64,000 nt of DNA from the NCBI RefSeq assembly GCF_039822265.1, contig NZ_JBAJEX010000002.1:1-64000 (forward strand), in the 5' to 3' direction. Position numbers and translations under genes: made by a program. Source of the stretch: Thiobacter sp. AK1. GTDB taxonomy: Bacteria; Pseudomonadota; Gammaproteobacteria; Burkholderiales; Thiobacteraceae. The notes under the pieces are model-generated. The model did no database searches, was not told the DNA's origin, and saw nothing but the letters and a program-made list of their open reading frames with translations. Positions 1 to 55,698 of the stretch are shown piece after piece. Position 1 is the first letter of the stretch. Every line of letters starts with the position of its first letter.

Positions 1-217
1 CCGAACGCTTCAACCGCACCCTCCAGGAGTCCTTCGTCGACTACCACGAAGACTTGGCTCTACCGACCTGGCCCTCTTCAACCAAAAACTCGCCGATTGG
101 CTCATCTTCTACAACACCCAGCGCCCCCACCATCGACTCGGCCAACAAACCCCTCTATCCTTCCTCCTCCAACACCAACCCGAGTGCCAAAGGTGGTGGA
201 CTCATACATTGCGTTGA
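1..217 (+). pseudogene. IS481-like transposase, C-terminal fragment with frameshift
   Basis: This is the end of a DDE integrase-type transposase whose beginning lies before the window. The first frame (from base 3) reads ERFNRTLQESFVDYHED; after a frameshift near bases 54-62 a second frame continues TDLALFNQKLADWLIFYNTQ, then RPHH and a PLSFLLQHQPE tail, ending at a TGA at 215-217. This is the typical C-terminus of IS481/IS3-type integrases, including the catalytic-Glu helix region. The frame change means it is broken unless the IS uses programmed frameshifting. The same IS family recurs, internally deleted, at 55002. The IS end is probably base 219, since both copies share CATACATTG-GTTGACA and then diverge. 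Confidence 0.8.
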
Positions 218-49354: not shown

Positions 49355-49439
49355 ACCCAACCTCCTTCAAGTCGGCTTCAATCGCCGCACCCCGCCGCGC
49401 GGCTTCGCCCTGCCATTTCGCCAGCGCCGAGTTGTTCAT
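49335..49439 (-). CDS. 34-residue ORF like the HsdM C-terminal tail
   Basis: It begins MNNSALAKWQGEAARRGA and continues IEADLKEVGYGG. This matches the pattern at the HsdM end ([24 protein letters not shown]). Its ATG overlaps the fic stop by 4 bases (ATGA) and its end overlaps hsdS by 20 bases. It looks translated, coupled to both, and could be a split-off HsdM tail displaced by fic. It may also be a chance remnant. Confidence 0.5.
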   Translation of the reverse strand: MNNSALAKWQGEAARRGAAIEADLKEVGYGGRVA

Positions 49440-50605
49440 TCCGCCGCCTCCTCGAACAGCCGCAGATACGGATCAAAACGAAACCGCCGGTTGCGGGCGT
49501 AGCCGGTCATCTCGCGTAACAGTCCGATCGCTTCGAGGCGCGCGACGATCTGGTTGGCTCCGGCGGGTGTGATACCGAGCCATTCGCGCACGGTGGCCAC
49601 GCTGACGATGGGGTGCTCGAACAGGCGGTCCATGACGCGCTGGCCGTTGGCGGCGGCGCGGCCGAGGTGTTCGGTGATCTTGGCGCGGTAGTCCTCGCGC
49701 ATGCGCAGGATGGCCGCGGCGGTGGCCGTGGCTTCACGGCTGACCGCCTCGACGCCCGCGAGAAAAAAACCGAGCCAGCCCTCCCAGTCGCCCGCATCGC
49801 GCACGGCTTGTAGGCGTTCGTAGTATTCGGCGCGGTGCTGCTTGAAGTAATGCGACAGATACAGCACGGGCTTGGCGAGCAGCCGTTTCTCGGTGAGCAA
49901 AAAGGTGATCAAGAGCCGCCCGATGCGACCGTTGCCGTCCAGAAACGGGTGGATGGTCTCGAACTGGGCGTGGGCAAGCCCCACCTGTACCAGCGGCGGC
50001 AGGCCGGCGCCGTCGTGCAGGAATGTTTCCAGGTGGGAGAGGGCCTGCGGCACTTCGTGCGGCGGCGGGGGCACGAAGCGGGCGGTGGCAAGGGTGCAGC
50101 CCGCGGGGCCGATCCAGTTCTGGCTGGTGCGCAACTCGCCCGGTTGCAGGCGGCCGCCGCGCACGCCGCGCATGAGTTCAGCGTGGATTTCGCGGATCAG
50201 CCGCACTGAGATCGGGAGTTCACGTAGCCGTTCGAGCCCCAGGTTCATCGCCCGCACGTAGTTGGCAACTTCGTTCACGTCCTTGGGCGTGTCCGGGTCG
50301 AAGAGCTGCGCTTCGGCGGCGAGCAGGTTTTGCAGGGAAGACTGCGTGCCTTCGATCTGGCTGGACAGCACGGCCTCTTTGCGCACGTACATGAAGACGA
50401 AGAGGTCAGGATTGGGCAGCGTGAGCACGGCGCCGTCGAGCCGACCGAGGGCGTAGTCGGCAGCCGAGAGCCGCTCGCGCAGCGGAGCGCCAAGATCGAG
50501 CGGCGGATTGGGCGGCAGCGGTGCCGGGATGAAGGCGCGATAGCCCGTGAGCTGGCGGACGTAGCGGCCGGCGCGTCCTGCCTTATTTTCATCTGCGTTA
50601 TTCAT
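49436..50605 (-). CDS. Fic-domain adenylyltransferase
   Basis: A 389-residue Fic/DOC protein. The inhibitory helix motif (S/T)xxxE(G/N) is at the N-terminus (SSQIEGTQSSL), giving self-inhibition of class II type. The active motif is HPFLDGNGRIGRLL (about residue 219). A C-terminal winged-helix (VATVREWLGITPAGANQIVARLEAIGLL) is typical of COG3177 members. The gene appears intact inside an otherwise broken type I restriction locus. It may modify a host or phage target with AMP; the target is unknown. Confidence 0.92.
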   Translation of the reverse strand: MNNADENKAGRAGRYVRQLTGYRAFIPAPLPPNPPLDLGAPLRERLSAADYALGRLDGAVLTLPNPDLFVFMYVRKEAVLSSQIEGTQSSLQNLLAAEAQLFDPDTPKDVNEVANYVRAMNLGLERLRELPISVRLIREIHAELMRGVRGGRLQPGELRTSQNWIGPAGCTLATARFVPPPPHEVPQALSHLETFLHDGAGLPPLVQVGLAHAQFETIHPFLDGNGRIGRLLITFLLTEKRLLAKPVLYLSHYFKQHRAEYYERLQAVRDAGDWEGWLGFFLAGVEAVSREATATAAAILRMREDYRAKITEHLGRAAANGQRVMDRLFEHPIVSVATVREWLGITPAGANQIVARLEAIGLLREMTGYARNRRFRFDPYLRLFEEAAE

Positions 50606-51930: not shown

Positions 51931-52113
51931 GCCCCGATCCTTGCCCAGCGTCTGGCGCTGCGTCAGGTCGAGGTCTTTGGCGTGATCGATGAAATCGGCA
52001 TCGCCGATGATCACATCCACACGCTCCCGGGCGCGCGTCGCTGCAAAGCCCTTGGCGCCGCAGGGGACGGAACATGACGAGAGGTGAGGGAGGATATCGT
52101 GTTGGTCTGCATG
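51931..52113. other. Unassigned sequence between IS remnant and modC
   Basis: No supported gene. It may be further decayed transposase. Confidence 0.3.
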
Positions 52114-53196
52114 TCAACGCTCCACCGACGCGGCCTTGATCAGCGCAATCACGGTCTCGTTTTCTCTGAGCTGCAGCGCCGCAAGGGCGGTTTCGGTGAT
52201 CTCGCTCCATAGCCCTTGCCCGTCGGCTAGACAGAGCCGCACCAGGACATGGCCGCGGCGGCTTTCGGCAAAGCTGCAGATGCGCGCGGGAAGGTGGTTG
52301 AGCATGCTGATGTCTGCGGGCACGCGGCGCGCCAGCGCCACGTCACGCGCGTACACCCGCAGCCGCGCCCGGGGGCTCGCCGCAATGCCAGGAAAGGTGA
52401 GCAGGCTGCCGTCGATGTGCAATTGCGCCAGGCCCTCGGCCAGCGTGCTGGCCTGCCCTTCGAGCACGGCCACCGGCCCGAGGCGGTCGAACAGCGGCGA
52501 GTCCGCGCGCATCAGCGCATCGGCCAGCGGTTCCACGCGCAGGATGCGCCCGGCGTCCATGAACACCACGCGCTGCGCCAGACGCTCGATCTCCTCTGGC
52601 GCGTGGCTGACCAGCAGCATCGGCAAGCTGCGGCTTTGCGCAAGCTCGGCGATGAGTTCGAGCAGATCGTCCTTGGCGCGCCAGTCCAGCGCAGCCAGCG
52701 GCTCGTCGAGCAGCAGCAGCCGCGGCCGCGACAGCAACGCGCGCGCGATCGCCACCCGCTGTTTTTCGCCGCCGGACAGCGCACCGATGCGCCGCTCCAG
52801 CAGATGCGCGATGCCGACCGCTTCGGCCTGCGCCTGCACGGCCGCCGCGTCGACGCCGCCGGGGGCGCGGCGCGCGGCAAACTCCAGATTGCCGCGCACG
52901 GTGAGGTGCGGAAACAGCGCCGCGTCCTGGAACACATAGCCGACGTTGCGCGCCATCGGCGGCGTCTGTCGCGCGCCGTCGAGCCAGACCACGCCGCCCA
53001 CCTCCAGCCGACCGTGCACCCGCGGGATCAGCCCGGCGATGGCGCGCAGCAGCGTGCTCTTGCCGCAGCCGGAGCGGCCGAAGATCGCGGTGATGCCGTC
53101 GAGCGGCCAAGAGAATGTGCCCGTGTTCAGCGTGAAGGCACCGAGCCGCACGGCAAGCTCGCCGCGCACGGCGGCATCGCTCGGTTCCTGCATCAT
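52114..53196 (-). CDS. modC: Molybdate ABC transporter ATP-binding protein ModC
   Basis: A 360-residue ATPase: Walker A FGRSGCGKSTLLRA, signature ALSGGEKQRVAIARAL, Walker B LLLLDEPLAALD, then a C-terminal Mop/TOBE domain (ARICSFAESRRGHVLVRLCL) that senses molybdate. The ATG at 53196 overlaps the modB stop (ATGA). Last gene of modABC. Confidence 0.96.
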   Translation of the reverse strand: MMQEPSDAAVRGELAVRLGAFTLNTGTFSWPLDGITAIFGRSGCGKSTLLRAIAGLIPRVHGRLEVGGVVWLDGARQTPPMARNVGYVFQDAALFPHLTVRGNLEFAARRAPGGVDAAAVQAQAEAVGIAHLLERRIGALSGGEKQRVAIARALLSRPRLLLLDEPLAALDWRAKDDLLELIAELAQSRSLPMLLVSHAPEEIERLAQRVVFMDAGRILRVEPLADALMRADSPLFDRLGPVAVLEGQASTLAEGLAQLHIDGSLLTFPGIAASPRARLRVYARDVALARRVPADISMLNHLPARICSFAESRRGHVLVRLCLADGQGLWSEITETALAALQLRENETVIALIKAASVER

Positions 53197-53891
53197 GCTG
53201 CGTGCTCCCGACTGCCTTGCCGGTACAGGCCGTAGACCACGGTCAGCACGATGACCGCAAACACCAGCATCAGCGCCGAGAGGATGTGCGCCTGCGCATA
53301 CTCCATCGCCTCGACATGGTTGTAGATGTCGATCGACACCATCCGCGTCTTGCCCGGGATGTTGCCGCCGACCATCAGCACCACGCCGAACTCGCCCACC
53401 GTGTGCGCGAAGGTGAGGGTGAGTGCGACGATCAGGCCGCCGCGCGACAGCGGCAGCACCACGTTGAAAAAGCGGTCCCACCAGCCGGCGCGCAGGGTGG
53501 CCGCGGCATCGAGCAGGTTCTGCGGCAGCGCCTCGAACGCGCGCAGCAACGGCTGCACCATGAACGGCAGCGAATACACCACCGAGCCGATGATCAGGCC
53601 GATTTTGTTGAAGGTGAGCTGCCCCTCATAGCCCAGGCTATGCAACGTCTGCGTCAGCCAGCCCTGCGGGTTGAGGAAAACCAGCAGATAAAAGCCCAGC
53701 ACCACCGGCGGCAGCACCAGCGGCAGCGCGACCACCGCCTCGACCGCAGCGCGCAGCGGCGACTTCCAGTGCGCCAGCACCCAGGCGATCGCAATCCCCG
53801 GAACCAGCAGGATGGCGGTCGAGATGCTCGCGACTTCGAGCGTCAGCCACAGCGGGCCGAGGTCGATGGCATGACCGAAAAGCTCCACCAC
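53193..53891 (-). CDS. modB: Molybdate ABC transporter permease ModB
   Basis: A 232-residue permease with about five helices and the ATPase-coupling EAA loop (FEALPQNLLDAAATLRAG). MVGGNIPGKTRMVSIDIYNHVEAMEY is typical of ModB. It lies 16 bp after modA. Confidence 0.96.
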   Translation of the reverse strand: MVELFGHAIDLGPLWLTLEVASISTAILLVPGIAIAWVLAHWKSPLRAAVEAVVALPLVLPPVVLGFYLLVFLNPQGWLTQTLHSLGYEGQLTFNKIGLIIGSVVYSLPFMVQPLLRAFEALPQNLLDAAATLRAGWWDRFFNVVLPLSRGGLIVALTLTFAHTVGEFGVVLMVGGNIPGKTRMVSIDIYNHVEAMEYAQAHILSALMLVFAVIVLTVVYGLYRQGSREHAA

Positions 53892-53907: not shown

Positions 53908-54672
53908 TTACTGCGGGATGGTGTAGCCGTATTTGTCGATCACGGCACGCGCCTCGGGCCCGCGCAGGAAGTCCAGATACGCCTTGGCCGCCGGCTTGTC
54001 GGCGCCGGGCTTGAGCACGACCGCGCTCTGGTCGATCGGGCTGTAGTCGGCCTGCGGCACCACCCACCACTGCCCCTTGCCCGCACCGATCGCCTGCGAC
54101 AACGCGACGAAGCCCGCCTGCGCGTTGCCGGTGGCGACAAAGTCGAAGGTCTGGCCGATGTTCTGCCCCTCGACGATCTTTGGTTTGATCGCCTCATACA
54201 CGCCCATTTTTTTCATCGCCTCGATCGCTGCGGCACCGTAGGGCGCGGTCTTTGGGTTGGCGATCGCCAGATGCTGGAAGTCACCCTTGCGCAGGATCTG
54301 CTCGCCCTGCGCCTTCACCGGCAGCGTCGTGCTGTAGAGCACGAGCGCGCCGCGGGCGTAGATGAAATCGGTCGCGGCGACGGCGTGGCCCTCTTTGGCC
54401 AGCGCCTTGGTCGTCGTGTCGTCGGCGGCGAGCAGCACGTCGAACGGCGCGCCGTTGCGGATCTGCGCAGCGAACTGACCGGTGGCACCGAAGGCGTACT
54501 TCACCTCGTTGCCGGTCTTGGCCTTGAACAGCACGCCGATTTCCTCGGCGGGTTTTTTGAAGTTGGCGGCAACCGCCACCGTGATGGTTTCGGCGCGTGC
54601 CTGCGCTGCAAACGCCAGGGGCAGGGCCAGCAGCAACGCGGCACCGCGCAGCACATGGGTGAATCGTGTCAT
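53908..54672 (-). CDS. modA: Molybdate-binding periplasmic protein ModA
   Basis: A 254-residue substrate-binding protein with a Sec signal (LRGAALLLALPLAFAAQARA). ITVAVAANFKKPAEEIGVLF and YAFGATGQFAAQIRNGAPFD carry the anion-binding loops of ModA. ACGGAGTG is its ribosome site. Directly upstream lies a molbindin fragment. Confidence 0.96.
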   Translation of the reverse strand: MTRFTHVLRGAALLLALPLAFAAQARAETITVAVAANFKKPAEEIGVLFKAKTGNEVKYAFGATGQFAAQIRNGAPFDVLLAADDTTTKALAKEGHAVAATDFIYARGALVLYSTTLPVKAQGEQILRKGDFQHLAIANPKTAPYGAAAIEAMKKMGVYEAIKPKIVEGQNIGQTFDFVATGNAQAGFVALSQAIGAGKGQWWVVPQADYSPIDQSAVVLKPGADKPAAKAYLDFLRGPEARAVIDKYGYTIPQ

Positions 54673-54673
54673 C

Positions 54674-54880
54674 TCACACTCCGTCAGGTTTTGTCACAAC
54701 AAAGGGAAAAAGGCGGCCCCGGGCACAGGCCCGGAGCCGGCAAGCGAGGTGAGATGCTTGGTCCACCCCGAGGATGACATGGCTCGCCTTGATCAGCGCG
54801 CAGACTGCGTCGCCCACCTTCAGGCCGAGTGTTTTTTCGGTGCCGGTGGTGATCATCACCGGCCCTGCGCAACCACCATC
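54674..54880 (-). pseudogene. Molbindin (Mop/TOBE) gene fragment
   Basis: The frame from a stop near 54883 reads MITTGTEKTLGLKVGDAVCA and then LIKASHVILGVD, which is the second half of a Mop domain. The first half is missing, and an ordinary stop after ILGVD has been lost, so the frame runs 28 codons on to just before modA. It probably came from a mop or modE gene once heading the operon. A short product is possible but could not bind molybdate alone. Confidence 0.75.
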
Positions 54881-54962
54881 TTACAAACACCGAAGGAAAA
54901 ACAGCGCCTTACACCGATGCTTGCGCCTAGCAGGAGGTTGCCTATTTTGCATTGCGCCACCT

Positions 54963-54986
54963 CGCTATATTCACATAAATATAGCG
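54963..54986. promoter_or_regulatory. ModE-like operator upstream of the mod operon
   Basis: CGCTATATT, six bases, then AATATAGCG form a perfect 9-bp inverted repeat. This matches the ModE box form known upstream of E. coli modA (CGTTATATT...TACATAACG). It overlaps the -10 box of the predicted mod promoter, so ModE-molybdate should block transcription. No modE gene is intact in the window. Confidence 0.85.
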
Positions 54987-55007
54987 GTCAGGCGCGGTGT
55001 GTGTCAA
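54978..55007 (-). promoter_or_regulatory. mod operon promoter with IS-derived -35
   Basis: On the minus strand TTGACA (55007-55002) is followed by an 18-bp spacer and TATATT (54983-54978). The -35 is the last six bases of the IS481-like remnant; the -10 lies in the ModE box. Confidence 0.7.
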
Positions 55008-55335
55008 CTCAATGTATGGATCCCCCAGCTTTGCCACTCGGGTTGATGTTGGAGGAAGAATTGTATGAGTGCGGCGGCGGTGGCGGCTGGTTTTGCTTGG
55101 GATCGCCAGGCCAAAGGCGAAGCGGCTGGTCGGATCGATGAAGGTAAGGAAGTCGCGGCGAAGTCTATCGCGCACCCGCTCGATGGTATCCACCGCCAGG
55201 TGCTGCCATGGGACGACCGTGACGGCCTTGGGCTTGCGCGGCTTGGGGTGACGGCGCACGGGCTTCAGGCGTTGCCGGGCATGGCGCCGAGTCGTGCTTG
55301 GGCATCTTTGGGCGTCATCTGCCAAAGATGCCGCA
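55002..55335 (-). pseudogene. IS481-like transposase remnant, internally deleted
   Basis: The minus strand reads RHPKPRKPKAVTVVPWQHLA, then VDTIERVRDRLRRDFLTFID and PTSRFAFGLAIPSKTSRH: the first catalytic Asp and the next strand of a DDE integrase. It then jumps to the extreme C-terminus (LQHQPEWQSW, HTLS), losing the other two acidic residues. The end CATACATTGAGTTGACA equals that at base 203-219, so both belong to one IS family. Confidence 0.8.
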
Positions 55336-55438
55336 ATCCCGCTGCCCGGTAAAACCCCCTGATCCTGTATCCAATGTGCTGCCCTTGCATGGCGTTCCTC
55401 CGTCATCGAAGCAGTGCCAAAGGTTTCTGAACTTATGC
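55336..55438. other. Sequence between IS remnant and truncated MITE
   Basis: No gene is seen; probably deletion junctions. Confidence 0.3.
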
Positions 55439-55541
55439 AGCGGGGACCCAGGAACATGGTGAGGAATACCCTCGATTCCCGCTTTCGCGAGAATGACGTT
55501 TGACTTACGCAGCCTGTCAACGACTTCCGTAGCGCTCAATA
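55439..55541 (-). mobile_element. MITE copy 4 (truncated)
   Basis: It matches the last 103 bp of copy 3 from AGCGGGGACCCAGG to GCTCAATA, same orientation, with several substitutions. The other inverted-repeat end is lost, probably by the neighbouring IS. Confidence 0.85.
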
Positions 55542-55698
55542 GGCCGCATTTCGGTCTCTCCGGCTCCCGCGTCATCTGGCCCGAATGCGGTGTGCCGGGT
55601 TGCCCACGGTGCCCGGCACGATGAAGTGATCCCTGCGCCGAAGACGGCTCGCCGTCGTTCGCCACCCGTTCTTGTGGGCTTGCCAAACCCACGCCGAG
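55542..55698. other. Region after rng with hairpins
   Basis: No gene. GTGCCGGG/CCCGGCAC (55592-55619) and GACGGC/GCCGTC (near 55643-55656) can fold; the second may end the rng transcript on the minus strand. Confidence 0.4.

Follow-up and report, generated by a model that had tools for sequence, protein, structure and literature searches.

The modABC operon of Thiobacter sp. AK1 is preceded by a predicted operator of the ModE type and by a piece of a Mop-domain gene that lacks its beginning. This combination raises the questions of which protein would act at the operator and how that protein would sense molybdenum. A first-pass annotation had proposed that the operon lost its own sensor (mop or modE) while keeping the operator, leaving control to a ModE encoded elsewhere. 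We examined the locus in a window of 64,000 nt (positions 1-64,000 of contig NZ_JBAJEX010000002.1, assembly GCF_039822265.1), in the genome as a whole (G000; 2.54 Mb, 32 contigs, estimated completeness 99.97%), and in related genomes. Comparison of these sequences makes it likely that this is a modG-modABC operon of the Thiomonas type whose first gene has been cut to 33 codons, and that a single-domain ModE binds the predicted operator together with two others.

Table 1. Features of the mod region, in window coordinates
Feature	Position	Strand	Remark
modC, ATPase with C-terminal TOBE	52114..53202	-	TIGR02142, 315.2 bits; PF03459, 35.2 bits
modB, permease	53193..53891	-	TIGR02141, 220.4 bits
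modA, molybdate-binding protein	53908..54672	-	TIGR01256, 235.8 bits
61-codon frame	54674..54859	-	33 codons plus read-through beyond the lost stop; ends one base before the modA ATG
Terminator- or attenuator-like hairpin, then T run	54714..54739	-	same place in Thiomonas
Last 33 codons of two-Mop (ModG-like) molbindin gene	54761..54859	-	Thiomonas homology begins at 54860
Predicted operator, ModE-box type	54963..54986	.	perfect 9+9 dyad, 6-base spacer
Predicted promoter TTGACA-18-TATATT	55007 to 54978	-	11/12 matches; -10 within one dyad arm
IS481-like transposase remnant	55013..55403	-	NF033577, 18.1 bits, under cut-off; repeats elsewhere in genome

A predicted ModE operator overlaps the mod promoter

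The operator reads CGCTATATT-CACATA-AATATAGCG and contains the inverted repeat form CGNTATAT-N8-ATATANCG. Its ninth base per arm is T/A, whereas the consensus given in the available portion of PMC545781, ATCGNTATATA-N6-TATATANCGAT, has A/T. No other place in the window matches the dyad pattern at up to three mismatches, and none of 100 dinucleotide shuffles contained a match. At the same stringency the 2.54-Mb genome holds one further place, and a reversed-pattern control found none. These results bear out the earlier description of a perfect ModE-form dyad covering the -10 of a predicted mod promoter.

Overlap of such an operator with the promoter of mod or Moco genes is not confined to this site. 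The -10 again falls within the box at the genome's own moaA (TTGTCT-18-TATATT), and the same geometry is found at modA of G054 and at the molbindin gene promoters of three related loci (L131, L132, and L135). The window dyad is perfect, and the Thiomonas dyads that we saw are less good.

We also aligned the 142 bases between the IS end region and the breakpoint of the molbindin gene (54861-55002) locally with eight targets (five Thiomonas-type leaders, the modA promoter of G001, and the genome's own moaA-mobB region on both strands) and scored the alignments against shuffles. The score was equalled by 1 of 200 shuffles for L131, where it reflects a 14-base match, by 2 of 200 for L133, where it lies in the box region, and for the remaining six targets by between 16 and 106 of 200. 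In a separate, earlier alignment with G001, 5 of 300 shuffles did as well.

The gene before modA is a remnant of a molbindin gene

A single scan of named genomes for ModA relatives yielded 12 confirmed loci, the closest of which belong to Thiomonas and to an unclassified proteobacterial bin (76-84% identity where most of the protein matched). Nucleotide homology to L131 (T. bhubaneswarensis) and L132 extends from 54860 down to 52110, past modC, at 81-82%. Both of these loci carry, directly before modA, a complete 140-residue gene that has two Mop repeats and lacks a DNA-binding domain. The same 140 residues lie within a longer frame in L135, and a run of N falls inside the molbindin gene of L134.

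Within the window, 33 of the 140 codons are left, with no stop codon of their own. The fragment covers positions 37-69 of 70 in TIGR00638 (28 bits, E 1.7e-6, cut-off 55) and 37-64 of 64 in PF03459 (19.7 bits, cut-off 22.3), scores that stay under the curated cut-offs as expected of half a domain, and it contains no complete Mop domain. Its best match among solved structures is the end of the second repeat of PDB 1h9j, which we take to be ModG of Azotobacter vinelandii. Both this match and the alignment with Thiomonas indicate descent from a Mop/ModG gene. The half domain without an N-terminal half that had been noted before modA was correctly recognized. The intact Thiomonas gene matches the ModG described in the available text of PMC11980592 (PDB 1h9j) in carrying a pair of Mop repeats, and it lacks a DNA-binding domain.

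The former stop codon has changed from TAA to CAA (54758-54760) and is kept as TAA in L131, L132, and L135; the open frame runs on past it and through the hairpin. This frame, previously given as 62 codons, is real but counts 61. Three of its 33 gene-derived codons differ non-synonymously from L132, the same number as separates the intact L131 and L132 genes, a comparison of 33 codons and four relatives that makes a small sample. An intact short ORF of exactly this form was not seen among the loci inspected, where L131, L132, and L135 have the intact gene and L133 only a few codons of it. We conclude that the 61-codon frame is most likely debris.

Because the closest operons encode a two-Mop protein that lacks a DNA-binding domain, the lost gene is, on sequence comparison, a storage-type molbindin and not a transcriptional regulator. 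The proposal that the operon lost its own sensor therefore holds for a two-Mop molbindin, as found in Thiomonas, and not for modE; no transcriptional regulator of its own was lost. A full-length modE as the lost gene was ruled out by these same Thiomonas operons. More distant operons do have a full-length modE directly before modA, namely that of G056 and those of Azospirillum L136, L137, L138, and L140, the four inspected of six Azospirillum loci.

Separately, in the Thiomonas MAG MS_R2_3 (L133:1955-2050) the molbindin gene is reduced to some five to seven 3' codons with the hairpin kept, which is apparently a second, independent loss.

A conserved hairpin lies between the molbindin gene and modA

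The hairpin is shared with L131 (2934-2959), L132, L133, and L135, and in each case it lies between the molbindin gene or its remnant and modA. Single-fold z-scores of the five sequences range from -1.90 (L132) to -5.64 (L133); the L132 fold is unexceptional, with 11 of 200 shuffles as good. In the consensus of these five, both sides have changed in 3 of 11 pairs, and breaks or gaps affect three pairs in one or two sequences. The paired changes are supportive of a conserved structure, short of proof. The form and place of the hairpin suggest a terminator or attenuator separating the molbindin gene from modA, one that probably reduces read-through into the latter. A possible role would be to attenuate modABC expression relative to that of the molbindin gene.

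A single-domain ModE is the sole candidate regulator found

A search of the genome for modE returned one ModE domain that stands out (C1:181534-181797, 92.9 bits, next match 21.2), so the outcome that would have spoken against the earlier proposal, no ModE anywhere in the genome, was not seen. The domain aligns with positions 3-90 of 100 of TIGR00637 at 93.4 bits, slightly under the cut-off of 98.5, and belongs to a 114-residue ORF, the last gene of a mobB-moeA-moaD-moaE-modE operon from which moaA diverges. This protein has the DNA-binding domain alone: the two C-terminal Mop (TOBE) domains are absent, and there is no TOBE match. It is thus a single-domain ModE encoded inside a molybdenum gene cluster. 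Its relatives measure 111-148 residues in G001, G002, G003, G004, G037, and G054 (115 in G001, of the same genus). The closest solved relative is PDB 2ijl (135 residues; 104.9 bits, residues 3-106), for which "molybdenum-binding transcriptional repressor" is the depositors' name.

At up to one mismatch to the general form, boxes occur at three places in this genome and at three in G001, in both cases before moaA, mobB, and modA. The box before moaA differs from the modA dyad at two positions, and the one before mobB is the third dyad. The same Moco cluster recurs in three further genomes of the family (G002, G004, and G009), where a dyad separates moaA from mobB; in G003 the contig starts inside moeA. 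What had been called a ModE elsewhere can be replaced by a named gene with a predicted three-operon regulon.

In three genomes, a single-domain modE sits directly between Moco and mod genes (L088 in G009, L091 in G037, and L096 in G027), so that the regulator gene is flanked by uptake genes and cofactor genes in a single cluster. The first mod gene after modE is modA in G009 and G037 and modB in G027.

The earlier claim of control through a ModE encoded elsewhere stands as far as the identity of the candidate goes, and it leaves sensing unexplained, because the protein is a DNA-binding domain only and ModC has the genome's sole TOBE domain over cut-off. In the same-family genomes G001, G002, and G005-G008 no Mop match was found at E <=1e-6, which argues against a Mop partner being required.

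Single-domain ModE proteins are an already known kind. In the available portion of PMC545781 (2004) they are reported from three delta-proteobacteria, and molybdenum sensing in Desulfovibrio is called unclear. Like the ModE described here, the Desulfovibrio/Desulfotalea proteins consist of the ModE DNA-binding domain alone, and the box predicted for them there is CGGTCACG-N14-CGTGACCG, as opposed to the E. coli-type box of the window. Conversely, E. coli-type control of modABC and moa resembles the window in its box form at mod and Moco genes but relies on full-length ModE, which has two Mop domains according to the available text of PMC545781 and PMC11980592, whereas the regulator here has none. 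To this kind the present genome contributes a predicted regulon whose boxes are of the E. coli type. Among the literature matches listed, drawn from a collection of mostly open papers, there was no report of a Mop-less ModE with such boxes.

The box follows ModE across the order

We surveyed 399 genomes of the order, scoring boxes at up to one mismatch and Mop matches at E <=1e-6. A ModE match was present in 220 genomes, a box in 125, and a Mop match in 227. The box was found in 113 of the 220 genomes with ModE versus 12 of the 179 without, while the reversed control pattern occurred in 11 of 220 and 20 of 179, respectively. Of the 53 genomes that had ModE but lacked a Mop match, 37 carried a box and 2 the control, which speaks against the need for a separate Mop partner. 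Fisher p-values range from 4e-18 to 9e-24 and are too optimistic, since the genomes are related and some are incomplete (among the 53, G006 at 70% and G015 at 68%).

The genome of strain AK1 falls outside the 53 on account of one Mop match at 2.3e-9, for which ModC and the fragment are the candidates. Sixteen of the 53 had no box at one mismatch, including G002 and G006 of the same family; G002 has a weaker dyad at its Moco cluster. As a prediction from these distributions, control in trans of the modA operator by the single-domain ModE is well supported.

The mod block probably has a history distinct from that of modE

The alignment of G001 with the window covers 64000 to 55701 and ends there, and the ModA of G001 is only 36% identical to that of the window. 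The ModE proteins show the opposite pattern, with 77% identity to G001 and 53-56% to the Thiomonas-type genomes. This discord, with ModA close to Thiomonas and ModE close to G001, suggests that the mod block was acquired horizontally, and differential loss may be an alternative explanation of the same pattern. In a search for close plasmid-borne relatives, all 110 plasmid records with a ModA relative were below 60% identity. Of five Thiomonas-type genomes searched, four encode a ModE domain, in ORFs of 125-216 residues that lack Mop repeats; no ModE was found in the bin of L133, even though the mod operon is present there.

Downstream of modC, a piece of about 100 bp (51939-52037) matches Thiomonas L131 and L132 at 83-84% identity; it is separated from the main block by about 1.1 kb in those loci and by about 70 bp in the window. 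A gene for a Fic-family protein (49436-50605, minus strand; PF13784, PF02661, HTH_13) also lies in the vicinity of the mod block, past the end of the gene order shared with G001.

Proposed control of the operon and alternatives

We infer that the 114-residue ModE most likely binds the operators of modA, moaA, and mobB, the last of which precedes the operon that encodes ModE itself. The protein would probably repress modA transcription when molybdenum is sufficient, by covering the -10 and competing with RNA polymerase. Weighing against this model are the sub-cut-off score of the single-domain ModE, the 16 genomes with ModE and without a Mop match that lack a box, the L133 bin with its mod operon and no ModE found, and the different box linked to single-domain ModE in Desulfovibrio. 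Molybdenum would then be sensed by a route that uses no Mop domain of the regulator. Tentatively, and with slightly more doubt than conviction, we suggest that in this lineage and many of its relatives the whole ModE regulon, uptake and cofactor synthesis included, works through a Mop-less ModE with no Mop protein found, and hence through an undescribed molybdenum route. Candidates within this suggestion are direct binding of molybdenum to the DNA-binding protein or a partner, namely ModC (with its TOBE domain), MoeA, or MoaE. With this regulon, an old question about molybdenum sensing by single-domain ModE, left open in the available text of PMC545781 (2004), becomes testable.

With the leader gene broken, its stop lost, and an IS remnant abutting the promoter, the operator might be a relic, modABC constitutive, and the dyad and the 61-codon frame both in decay. 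We consider this unlikely because the dyad is perfect, surpassing the Thiomonas ones, and the genome retains ModE and two further boxes. The frame might instead be translated and useful, for instance by yielding a half-Mop peptide or by acting as a leader whose stop codon couples it to modA; its end next to the modA ATG and its non-synonymous count, no higher than that between intact genes, would fit such a role. Nevertheless, the N-terminal half of the domain and the stop are missing, the frame crosses the hairpin, and L133 has lost still more of the gene. Moreover, the available text of PMC11980592 describes buried sites in Tub, a relative, that use residues from both halves. We therefore judge a functional frame to be quite improbable.

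The remaining alternatives leave out ModE. A dyad alone names no protein, and a box-like site occurs in 12 of the 179 genomes without a ModE match, so an unrelated regulator could occupy it with the single-domain ModE uninvolved; yet that count is not above its reversed control, unlike the one for genomes with ModE, and the boxes sit at molybdenum genes, which makes another regulator very improbable. Control by the leader RNA, as a molybdenum riboswitch, appears the most remote of these ideas. The leader of about 300 nt does fold well (z -2.18, with 1 of 100 shuffles as good) and includes the terminator-like hairpin, but the hairpin can also be explained as the terminator of the lost gene. In addition, RF01055 had no match in 54600-55100 up to E 10 and nothing over cut-off in nine genomes, G000 included, and two tRNAs are the only RNA families above threshold in the window. 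Repression by the single-domain ModE thus remains the reading that we prefer.

IS481-like ends and other repeats near the promoter

The IS481-like remnant lies between rng and the mod promoter, with its end 5 bp before the -35 hexamer. We considered whether the IS end supplied the -35 and ruled this out, as the copies diverge before the hexamer. The end itself, about 32-50 bp and sometimes alone, is present in the window at 55013-55060 (minus strand) and 161-208 (plus strand), with further copies on contigs C4, C5, C7, C10, C16, and C21 of this genome and C9, C15, and C33 of G001. No second end or target duplication of the element was found. In seven of eight own-genome copies (up to three mismatches), as at the mod promoter, a gap of exactly 5 bp separates the end from a downstream sigma-70-like -35, followed by a -10 at a spacing of 17-18 bp; the exception is C21:62, and in G001 one of three copies (C9) fits. 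Promoter scores of at least 8 of 12 were reached at 1.2% of 3000 random places. The element may insert at a fixed distance upstream of promoters.

Finally, a repeat of about 100 bp containing GTCATTCNCGCGAAAGCGGGAATC (window 55439-55542) has further copies, 87-93% identical, close to the beginning of its contig (L166:437-538 and 1972-2075).
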